Source of the DNA: Acidimicrobiia bacterium
Lineage (GTDB): Bacteria > Actinomycetota > Acidimicrobiia > Spongiisociales > UBA11373
Length of the DNA stretch: 64,000 nucleotides
Assembly: GCA_016932695.1 (NCBI GenBank)
Contig: JAFGCH010000016.1
Span: 16,357 to 80,356 of the forward strand
Direction of reading: 5' to 3'
In this document: positions 43,295 through 54,107 of the stretch, piece after piece
Numbering within the stretch: position 1 is the first letter of the stretch
How the letters are laid out: each line of letters starts with the position of its first letter
Notes under the pieces: generated by a model
The model's input: only the letters and a program-made list of their open reading frames with translations
Databases searched by the model: none
Told to the model about the DNA's origin: nothing
Program-made: the position numbers and the translations under genes

Positions 43295-44698
43295 TCAGCA
43301 GCTGACGAAGGCGCCCGTACCGGTGCCGAAGCTGCGGATGCGAGCGCTCGCGGCGGGGGGATCGGAGGGCGGATTCGCGAAGCGGCCGTTGTTGTAGCTC
43401 AGGTTTTCGTGGTACCAGAAGGCTACGCCGTCCGGATCCAGGTCGAAGCGTGCCCCCATCTCCTCGAAGTCGGCCCAGCGCCAGGCGGGGCGGATGCCGC
43501 CGGCGAAGAACAGCCAGTCCGGCAGGTCCTGGAGGTCGTTGACTTCCCAGCCGTCGAACTGCCGGGAACCGTTGCGGTCGGTGAAGATGGCGGTGAAGCC
43601 GTCCCAGGTGATCTCCTGCCAGTCGGCTCCGCTGCACGGGCTGGAGAACCAGCCGGTGGAGTCATCCGGGGTGCCGAACAGCAGGGTCAGGGAGGCTCGG
43701 GCTTCGGCTGCAGGCGTGCCGAAGGCGACCTCGCCGACACCCTGCCGGGAGGCGAGCACGATGTCGGATTCGCCCGAGACCACCTCTTCCAGCAGACGCT
43801 GGGTCTGCGGGCCCGCCTTGCCGTCGACGTCGAGGCGGTAGTCGCGCTGGAAGAGGCCCACCGCCTCCTCGGTCTCCTCGTCGTAGGTGCCCCCGCCGGC
43901 TCCGCCGTAGTAGCCCAGTTCGGCCAGGGTTTGTTGCAGGGCGGCGATGTCTTCGCCCTCATCCCCGGGGCGCAGGATGCCGTCGTCGGAGACGGTCTCG
44001 CACTCCAGGGTTCCGGTGAAGGTGCATTCGATCTCGCCGGTGTAGGCGGCGACGGGCTCCCCCCCGCCGAAGTAGTCATCGGCCGGGAAGACGGATACCC
44101 CGGCGATGAAGTGCGCCGACCCGGTCCAGTCGAACACTTTGGGCGCCAACTCGAGCGCAGCGAGGTGCTCGACGCGGCGGGCCTGGTAGTCCGTGGTGGT
44201 CTCCAAGTAGGCGAGGATCGAGGCGTAGTCGATCACCACGTAGGGGTTCCAGCCCCCCAACCCCCGCCCGTACAGGACCAGGGCTTGGTAATCGGGGGCA
44301 TAGGGGCCTTCGGTGAACGAAACTTGAAGGAGCATCTGATCGCTGTTGAGGCCGGTGATGGTCGGCATCGGATCGGGAAGGCGGAGGGAGAGGCGGGTGC
44401 CGGTCCCGTCGAGGGTGTCCTGCGACACCACCTCGTCTTGCTGCGGGTTGCGGTAGCGCATCTGGTGAGACCCCGTGTCCCGCAGCGGGTCGGCGACCGG
44501 ATCGGCCAGCAGGGGGGCTAGGGGGCCGGTGTCGGGCGCCGCGGTGCTCGTGCTCGTCGTGCTCGTCGTGGAGGTCGTTAGGGCTTGGGTCGTGGTGGTC
44601 GTCGAGGCTTCCGCGGTGGTCGAGGTCCCGGTGCCGCCGCAGGCGGCAGCGCAGAGGGCTACCACGAGCAGCAGGGTGAGCCGGCGAGCGGCGGGCAT
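43295..44698 (-). CDS. lipoprotein with peptidoglycan-binding-1-like domain
   Basis: Lipobox LCAAAC, Thr/Ser linker, GDEGEDIAALQQTLAELGYYGGAGGGTYDEETEEAVGLFQRDYRLDVDGKAGPQTQ. Confidence 0.75.
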   Translation of the reverse strand: MPAARRLTLLLVVALCAAACGGTGTSTTAEASTTTTTQALTTSTTSTTSTSTAAPDTGPLAPLLADPVADPLRDTGSHQMRYRNPQQDEVVSQDTLDGTGTRLSLRLPDPMPTITGLNSDQMLLQVSFTEGPYAPDYQALVLYGRGLGGWNPYVVIDYASILAYLETTTDYQARRVEHLAALELAPKVFDWTGSAHFIAGVSVFPADDYFGGGEPVAAYTGEIECTFTGTLECETVSDDGILRPGDEGEDIAALQQTLAELGYYGGAGGGTYDEETEEAVGLFQRDYRLDVDGKAGPQTQRLLEEVVSGESDIVLASRQGVGEVAFGTPAAEARASLTLLFGTPDDSTGWFSSPCSGADWQEITWDGFTAIFTDRNGSRQFDGWEVNDLQDLPDWLFFAGGIRPAWRWADFEEMGARFDLDPDGVAFWYHENLSYNNGRFANPPSDPPAASARIRSFGTGTGAFVSC

Positions 44699-44807
44699 GG
44701 AGCCTCCGAGAGGACGAAACGCTGCTCGGAAGGTAGCAAGCCTCGCGCGGTTGTGCCGATGGGCGGGGCCATTTGGGCCCGGGCCCCGCTAGCCTTCCCG
44801 GCAACGG

Positions 44808-44969
44808 AGAAAGGAGGTGGTCCAACAGTGATAGGCAGTTCTTACAGGACCCCGGAGGTGGCCGGGCGCTAAGCGGCCATCACAGGGGTGGCCGCTCCCC
44901 GGGGACGACCTCGGGGTAGGTGGCGACTCCAACCCGGACCACCGGGCCCGGAGATCCGTCAGTTGGTCC
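44808..44969 (+). ncRNA. candidate leader-peptide/structured regulatory RNA
   Basis: AGAAAGGAGGTGGTCC (16-nt anti-SD match), mini-ORF, alternative hairpins 44857-44864/44874-44881 and 44872-44881/44887-44896, SD complement GGACCACC at 44936-44943. Confidence 0.55.
44828..44872 (+). CDS. 14-aa mini-ORF (VIGSSYRTPEVAGR)
   Basis: GTG start 4 nt after the Shine-Dalgarno element, TAA stop overlapping the hairpin base. Confidence 0.5.
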   Translation: MIGSSYRTPEVAGR

Positions 44970-45023
44970 TCTGGCGGCGGCGGCGACGCTGAAGTGTCTC
45001 CGGGCCTGTCCGCGTCCCGGGGG

Positions 45024-45575
45024 TCAGTGGCGGGCAGCTTCCTGCTGCAGTGCCTCCAGCAGGCGGCGGATCTGGGAGCGGAAGCGCTCGTCGACCAGGT
45101 GCCCGGCGGCATCGAAGCGGCTCTCGGCGGAGTCGATCAGCACCTCGGGCAGGCCCACCACCCGTACCCGGTTGTGGCGCAGTATCTCGCGCAGGTGCGT
45201 CTGCGCCCGTACCGTGCCGAAGCGGCCGCCCGCCCCCAGGATGGCTGCCGGCTTGCCCCGCAGCGGGGAGGCTTCCCCGCCGCGCGAGGCCCAGTCGAGG
45301 GCGTTCTTGAGCACGCCGGGGATCGACCAGTTGTACTCCGGCGTGGCGACCAGCAGGGCGTCCGCCGCGGCGATGGCCTCCCGGAGGCGGGTTACCTCGT
45401 GGGGCAGCCCGGCCGCCTCCACATCCGCGTCGAAGTGGGGGATGCCGTGGAGGGTCATCACCTCCAGCACCATGCCTGGCGGAGCCAGGTCGGTCGCGGC
45501 TCGCAGGGCGGCGGTGTTGAAGGACGCGCCGCGCAAACTGCCCGAGATGGCGAGGACGCGTAGAGGTGGAGTCAG
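45024..45575 (-). CDS. NADPH-dependent FMN reductase family protein
   Basis: LRVLAISGSLRGASFNTAALRAA, LLVATPEYNWSIPGVLKNALDWASR; N-terminus implies a CTG start at 45575. Confidence 0.82.
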   Translation of the reverse strand: MTPPLRVLAISGSLRGASFNTAALRAATDLAPPGMVLEVMTLHGIPHFDADVEAAGLPHEVTRLREAIAAADALLVATPEYNWSIPGVLKNALDWASRGGEASPLRGKPAAILGAGGRFGTVRAQTHLREILRHNRVRVVGLPEVLIDSAESRFDAAGHLVDERFRSQIRRLLEALQQEAARH

Positions 45576-53237: not shown

Positions 53238-54107
53238 ATGGAGGAGCGAGAGATGGACGTCGAGCGGGTAGGAGTCGTCGGCGGCGGATTGATGGGTTCG
53301 GGGATCGCCGAGGTATGCGCCCGGGCAGGGCTCGAAGTCGCCGTGGTCGAGGTCACCGATGAGCTCGCCGCCGCCGGGCGCAAGCGGGTCGCCGCCTCCC
53401 TGGGCCGGGCTGTGGACCGGGGGAAACTGCCCGCCGAGGAACGGGATGCGGCGCTGGAGCGCCTCAACTTCGGCGCCGACTTAGAGGTGCTCGCCGATCG
53501 CGACCTGGTGGTGGAGGCGGTGATCGAGGACCCGGCGGTGAAGGTCGAGGTCTTCCGCCGTCTCGACGCGGTGGTGGCCCGCCCTGATGCCATCCTGGGC
53601 TCGAACACCTCATCGATTCCCATCGTGCGCCTGGGCCGCGCCACCCGGCGGCCGGAGCAGGTGATCGGCCTGCACTTCTTCAGCCCGGTGCCGGTGATGA
53701 AGCTGGTCGAGGTCATCCCTTCGGTCCTCACTTCGGCGGACACCCTGGCTCGCAGCCGTGCCTTCTCCGCCGAGGTGCTGCGGAAGGAGGTGATCCAGGC
53801 CTCCGACCGGGCCGGCTTCATCGTCAACGCTCTCCTCAACCCCTACACCATGGCGGCCATCCGCATGTACGAGGGGGGCTTCGCCACCCGGGAGGACATC
53901 GACAAAGGAATGATGCTGGGCACCAACCATCCCATGGGGCCGCTCACTCTCTGCGACTTCATCGGCTTGGACGTGGTTCTGGCCGTGGCCGAGGTGCTCT
54001 ACGAGGAGTTCAAGGACCCCTTCTACGCCCCTCCGCCGCTGCTGCGGCGCATGGTGGAGGGGGGCCTGCTGGGACGCAAGACGGGTCGAGGGTTCTACGA
54101 CTACTGA
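53238..54107 (+). CDS. 3-hydroxybutyryl-CoA dehydrogenase family protein
   Basis: VGVVGGGLMGSGIAEVCARAGLEV, SNTSSIPI, GLHFFSPVPVMKLVEVI, DIDKGMMLGTNHPMGPLTLCDFIGLD. Confidence 0.93.
   Translation: MEEREMDVERVGVVGGGLMGSGIAEVCARAGLEVAVVEVTDELAAAGRKRVAASLGRAVDRGKLPAEERDAALERLNFGADLEVLADRDLVVEAVIEDPAVKVEVFRRLDAVVARPDAILGSNTSSIPIVRLGRATRRPEQVIGLHFFSPVPVMKLVEVIPSVLTSADTLARSRAFSAEVLRKEVIQASDRAGFIVNALLNPYTMAAIRMYEGGFATREDIDKGMMLGTNHPMGPLTLCDFIGLDVVLAVAEVLYEEFKDPFYAPPPLLRRMVEGGLLGRKTGRGFYDY

Follow-up and report, generated by a model that had tools for sequence, protein, structure and literature searches.

A possible stand-alone, translated small RNA related to Ms_IGR-5, with a conserved micro-ORF between two Shine-Dalgarno sequences, in an Acidimicrobiia genome

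On the plus strand of an Acidimicrobiia genome (assembly GCA_016932695.1, contig JAFGCH010000016.1), a long Shine-Dalgarno (SD) sequence, a very short open reading frame (ORF) and a series of hairpins lie between two minus-strand genes, which raises the question of what such a block does when it leads into no gene. We studied it within a stretch of 64,000 nucleotides (nt), called the window below, in whose numbering all coordinates are given. The reading that we prefer, and to which we give a probability of about 0.5, is that the element is a stand-alone, translated, ribosome-docking small RNA (sRNA) related to Ms_IGR-5 (RF02471), a conserved actinobacterial RNA that is also present in mycobacteria and Streptomyces and has no known function. 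Comparison between homologs supports the RNA gene, its fold, the first SD sequence (SD1), selection on the ORF and the geometry of its stop codon relative to a second SD sequence (SD2). Ms_IGR-5 is already known as an actinobacterial sRNA; as far as we searched, what is new is a frame-independent micro-ORF between two SD sequences, a conserved complementarity to the full 16S tail, a pseudoknotted fold and a spread to other phyla. The argument is carried by three parts of the element:

44808-44823, plus strand: SD1, AGAAAGGAGGTGGTCC, able to pair with the entire single-stranded 3' tail of 16S rRNA and near-invariant in alignment A1.
44828-44872, plus strand: micro-ORF of 14 codons, VIGSSYRTPEVAGR, from GTG (44828) to TAA (44870-44872), recognised by its frame-specific lack of stops, its in-frame starts and the fixed place of its stop.
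44854-44861, plus strand: SD2, GGAGGTGG, inside the ORF, its core GAGGTG retained in nearly all homologs.

The 16S genes of four relatives end ...GGATCACCTCCTTTCT, so that the complementarity of SD1 spans the entire single-stranded tail; the pairing covers 16 nt with one G-U, as the first-pass annotation of this DNA had proposed. The genome (2.44 Mb) has a single exact copy of the 16-mer, and the chance expectation in the window for matches with up to three mismatches is 0.41. A near-copy of SD1, CGGAAGGAGGTGATCC, at 53781-53796 on the plus strand, lies inside an ORF of 289 amino acids (53238-54107) and looks like chance. For the element itself, an origin by chance or artefact was rejected, given the single copy of the 16-mer, the low chance expectation, and an element that is conserved across relatives and recovered by a pattern-free model.

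Selection on the micro-ORF can be read from its frame. Across 129 homologs, the linker varies in length by single bases, the start codon shifting along, and it holds 6 stops in the ORF frame versus 124 and 92 in the other two frames. An in-frame start at normal SD spacing is present in 127/129 homologs (CTG 32, TTG 31, ATG 30, GTG 17 and ATC, ATA or ATT, together ATH, 17), the start codons of this set being mostly other than AUG, and a stop codon falls exactly 5 codons past GAG in 121/129 (59 TAG, 45 TGA, 17 TAA). When the sequences were grouped into 41 clusters (linker similarity < 75%), all 41 kept the ORF, its start codon lying 15-23 nt from where SD1 begins and its stop closely following GGAGGTGG; with linkers and tails shuffled, the same test gave a mean of 2.1 and a maximum of 8. 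Among 39 divergent homologs found by the model, 24 pass a strict ORF test with GGAGGTGG or one mismatch, and for the other 15, which mostly retain GAGGTG only, inspection found a similar ORF in 14, while one has ACG at the expected place. ORF size across homologs is 10-17 codons. We had first favoured an incidental ORF because several homologs are without ATG, GTG or TTG, and the frame test, in which CTG and ATH were counted too, overturned this. These comparisons indicate that the micro-ORF is under selection, and we infer that it is also translated.

The same counts weigh on the idea of a non-coding sponge, in which SD1 would titrate the 16S tail and so tune SD-led against leaderless mRNA translation, the ORF being incidental; the 16-nt complementarity is indeed retained even in one family where its internal partner GGACCACC carries a mismatch (GTGATCC), but an ORF kept in 41/41 clusters, and in three different frames, makes a sponge unlikely. 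An RNA serving as guide or checkpoint when the 16S 3' end is matured or quality-controlled, with translation reporting a functional tail, would suit a complementarity that spans the whole mature tail and ends at helix 45, as well as the resemblance to the 16S tail of one strand of helix P1 (see below). Against it, the precursor sequence past the mature 16S end showed no complementarity at four rRNA loci, and we regard such a guide as improbable.

The stop codon is tied to SD2. It lies 14-19 nt past the first G of the second SD, GGAGGUGG, and in the window the P-site codon at the stop, CGC (44867, the last sense codon), is 8 nt past the end of the GGAGG of SD2 (44858), a distance normal for an SD. 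The frame through GGAGGUGG varies by lineage: most read GAG GTG (EVA), Planctomycetota read AGG AGG TGG (RRW), and GGG is found in some Actinomycetota and in an Eisenbacteria clade (L278-L285) that reads GGA GGT GGC (SGGGCS or SGGGGS, then the stop). Within this Eisenbacteria clade the linker lengths differ, with a start that is always GTG or TTG and a frame that is always GGG. Over linker codons -8 to -4 we found no excess of third-position variability and no codon periodicity. Given the lineage-dependent frame and the absence of amino-acid constraint in the linker codons, what seems to matter is that translation occurs and ends at a fixed place, and not the peptide: across the alignments, start and stop positions relative to the two SD sequences are conserved, peptide and frame are not. 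If true, this would be an unusual conserved bacterial ORF, free in peptide sequence and frame and fixed in its start, stop and internal SD.

That the locus encodes a bioactive peptide (10-17 residues), whose translation the fold merely controls, fits an ORF that is selected and an EV motif that recurs in most Actinomycetota. The invariant GAGGTG accounts for EV, however, and the frame through GGAGGTGG switches, so that the peptides of different lineages are unrelated; as the linker is also without triplet periodicity, we find a peptide gene quite unlikely.

Downstream of its start codon the micro-ORF enters a structured region, overlapping helices P1 and P2. The elements of the fold are these:

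44847-44850, plus strand: GGAC, proposed 5' strand of a pseudoknot with the P5 loop, pairing possible in 47/47 sequences, one covarying lineage.
44857-44866, plus strand: 5' strand of P1, pairing with 44933-44943 (A44938 bulged), with covariation, e.g. CG:32/UA:32 at one pair.
44867-44871, plus strand: 5' strand of P2, CGCTA, pairing with TGGCG at 44921-44925 and overlapping the stop codon.
44872-44896, plus strand: P3 hairpin, AGCGGCCATC:GGTGGCCGCT, with double changes at all 7 counted pairs.
44897-44916, plus strand: P4 hairpin, length-variable, read from the sequence; homologs have hairpins of differing sequence here.
44933-44943, plus strand: 3' strand of P1, CCCGGACCACC, which resembles the 16S tail and could alternatively pair with SD1.
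44944-45007, plus strand: P6 outer stem (44944-44955 with 44996-45007), enclosing P5; many homologs, including Streptomyces, have complementary stems of 12-13 bp and different sequence.
44956-44977, plus strand: P5 hairpin, with GGTCC in its loop (pseudoknot 3' strand 44966-44969), all 7 pairs covarying.

In 46 to 47 homologs, SD1 is followed by an A/T-rich linker of varying length; the conserved block AGGACYCYGGAGGUGGCCGRGCGCUA comes next, then variable hairpins, then GGYRGCGACUCCAACYCGGACCACC, and last a 3' hairpin whose loop reads GGUCC. Three covariation counts gave 89.4, 93.0 and 93.4% paired cells, versus <=53% after sliding the partners, and 96, 262 and 297 double changes, versus 35, 83 and 97 in shuffles; alignment A1 was not fitted to the covariance model, and A2 and A3 were, so their counts lean towards the model. 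P1, P2, P3 and P5 are backed by compensatory changes in these alignments, and for the pseudoknot one lineage (L164, L203) alters both sides (GUGAC/GUCAC). The fold z-score is -4.06 over 44803-45012, with P6 included. An RNA from the minus strand was rejected, its fold being no better than shuffles.

The first-pass annotation had placed its elements exactly: the SD at 44808-44823, GTG at 44828, TAA at 44870-44872, AGCGGCCATC at 44872-44881, GGTGGCCGCT at 44887-44896, GGTGGCCG at 44857-44864, GGACCACC at 44936-44943 and TGGTCC at 44964-44969. Of its two mutually exclusive hairpins, P3 stands, conserved with compensatory changes, and the alternative inside the ORF, CGGCCATC:GGTGGCCG, is present in the window at a level of conservation no higher than that of shuffles (62.4% paired versus 62.2%). 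Its pairing of GGACCACC with the SD can form in most group-A sequences and is energetically possible; covariation is absent, an A-C mismatch interrupts the pairing in one family (GTGATCC), and we rejected it as the main conserved helix and kept it as a possible alternative state only. Phylogenetic evidence pairs CCACC with the GGTGG of SD2 inside the ORF, that is, P1. Conservation of the SD-ORF-hairpin block in relatives and covariation, both singled out for checking, are present. Together with the selection on the ORF and the absence of a cis target, they fit the suggestion of a standalone small mRNA or regulatory RNA. The relation to Ms_IGR-5, SD2, the fixed distance from stop to SD2, the 3' domain of P5 and P6 down to ~45008 and the multi-phylum distribution go beyond that annotation.

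No Rfam family matches the locus at threshold. With an E-value cut-off in place of the gathering score, the window matches Ms_IGR-5 with 25.9 bits (E 3.1e-4), below the gathering score of 45, in an alignment that is full-length (model 1-184 of 184) and has the same order of elements. Intermediate copies join the two: R1, a covariance model from the window's own group, gives 48.4 bits to a Gordonia copy (L153) and 25.8 to a Streptomyces copy (L117), to which Rfam RF02471 gives 45.2 and 67.5. As R1 thus recovers copies that Rfam puts in RF02471, we consider the window element homologous to Ms_IGR-5; by these scores it is a distant relative and not a formal member. Both have a 5' SD-like GGAGGUGGUCC, GGAC, GAGGUGGCU...CGCUA, GGCGAAU and a 3' stem that encloses a hairpin with a GUCC loop, and the Rfam consensus UUG AUU GAU UUA UGG ACA UGU GAG GUG GCU GCC CGC UA contains the same ORF; the window copy differs in its full AGAAAGG 5' extension and in P2-P4. 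Ms_IGR-5 is expressed as an sRNA in Streptomyces lividans, S. avermitilis and Mycobacterium smegmatis (PMC8079986, PMC8780764, PMC10454040), and significant ribosome reads were found on its homologs in M. abscessus and M. smegmatis (PMC4974804). sRNAs with ORFs are known in general (PMC5521070, whose main text does not name this family), and in the open-access literature searched we found no mention of the conserved ORF of Ms_IGR-5 or of its spread beyond Actinomycetota.

The conserved frame suggests how the Ms_IGR-5 family may work. A 30S subunit would be captured by SD1 through the whole 16S tail, and initiation at the weak start codon would be slow and sensitive to initiation factors, as at similar sites in Staphylococcus aureus, where extended SDs steer weak start codons, including AUA and AUU (PMC13009471). 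The ribosome would then read about 14 codons and halt at the stop, where SD2, 8 nt before the P-site codon, is spaced so that the 16S tail could pair with it again; parked over SD2, the ribosome would open P1 and P2, and its release would be delayed. The RNA would exist in a ribosome-loaded and a free folded form, the latter perhaps closing SD1 with GGACCACC instead, and the ratio of the two could report available 30S or the capacity for initiation and termination; the RNA may also hold back ribosomal subunits. Candidate outputs are the sequestration of subunits, the sensing of available 30S or of initiation stringency, and a check on 16S tails. The conserved frame, the full-tail complementarity and the stop over a second SD lead to a testable hypothesis, namely that the RNA reads ribosome availability by being translated. 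Some points weigh against it: the CTG and ATH starts are read off the frame, ViennaRNA, run without pseudoknot or ribosome, prefers SD1:GGACCACC over P1 by a mean of 4.9 kcal/mol, and the authors of the ribosome data caution that footprints are also seen on many noncoding RNAs, including most of those of E. coli (PMC4974804).

Using blastn with 196 bases, we found the element in 48/59 relatives in the order and in 38/43 of the better genomes. A pattern-free search with covariance model R2 gave 102/296 Actinomycetota genomes, nearly always with one copy. A pattern scan for SD1 plus GGAGGTGG matched Acidimicrobiia, Thermoleophilia, Streptomyces, Tsukamurella and Gordonia and, beyond Actinomycetota, Eisenbacteria (16/47 versus 0 for a reversed-pattern control), Planctomycetota (11/294 versus 1), Acidobacteriota (4/347 versus 1) and Krumholzibacteria. 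R1 scores of the non-actinobacterial matches are 12.6 to 43 bits, part of which the pattern guarantees. A common origin is likely for the Eisenbacteria elements and plausible for those of the other phyla. Three pattern matches were set aside as chance: L173 (13.5 bits with R1), L198 (8.6 bits) and L178 (Hydrogenedentota), which has two SD-like stretches in apparent coding sequence, L173 likewise looking coding.

A counterpart in Alphaproteobacteria may be the sRNA CC2171 (RF01867), which begins AAAGGAGGUGAUCCA-GUG and has an ORF of 24-25 codons in two Methylobacterium copies; unlike the window element, it has another fold and an ORF without GGAGGUGG. The window scores 19.2 bits with its model, driven by the SD, versus a gathering score of 75, and the window's genome contains no CC2171. 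The two copies, on Methylobacterium plasmids (L286 1493-1673, L288 1491-1664), begin (A)GGAGGTGRTCCA-GTG, and their ORFs read VSHCLNQPLTSAYRTWNVASGAHA and VSHCLTPRSNALVTWMLASGEACAA, each followed by a stop. We hold only tentatively, at somewhat less than even odds, that all these form a phylum-spanning RNA class whose function is to translate an ORF of 10-17 codons and terminate on a second SD, independently of peptide and frame, with Ms_IGR-5, and possibly CC2171, as branches.

Stand-alone structured sRNAs are also known in Actinobacteria from the 6C, Ms1 and 6S-type families, none of which has an Rfam match at the locus; RNA polymerase is the target of Ms1 and 6S. Initiation sites of the infC and ccpN type likewise offset a weak AUA or AUU start by a very strong SD and sense IF3 stringency (PMC13009471), but they lead into ordinary genes, whereas in the window class an ORF of 10-17 codons is followed shortly by the end of the RNA.

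The boundaries of the putative gene are as follows:

44790-44795, plus strand: -10-like box TAGCCT, the aligned position being TATATT or A/T-rich in homologs (upstream regions, 46 homologs).
44803-45008, plus strand: putative RNA gene of ~206 nt, based on blastn conservation, the full-length sub-threshold Ms_IGR-5 match (44803-45014) and the fold z-score.

The -10-like box is kept 13-18 nt 5' of SD1 (46 to 47 homologs aligned), and transcription probably starts near 44803, likely close to ACCAG; a consensus scan called no sigma-70 promoter and no terminator at the locus. Flanking the element are two minus-strand genes, one for a PG_binding_1 protein (43295-44698, left) and one for an NADPH-dependent flavin mononucleotide (FMN) reductase (45024-45536, right), so that, as first annotated, the plus-strand element has no regulated gene directly 3' on its own strand. 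A cis-acting leader peptide or attenuator is very improbable despite the leader-like anatomy and the position ~60 nt upstream of a same-strand FMN riboswitch in two Eisenbacteria loci, since no same-strand neighbour at a constant place is common to the 21 loci compared, the window's downstream genes are on the opposite strand, and P6 or terminator-like hairpins come after the element. In the two Eisenbacteria loci, the FMN riboswitch is directly downstream of the element on the minus strand (L137 3953-4329, L147 6859-7195), and in L137 riboflavin-type ORFs appear to come after it.
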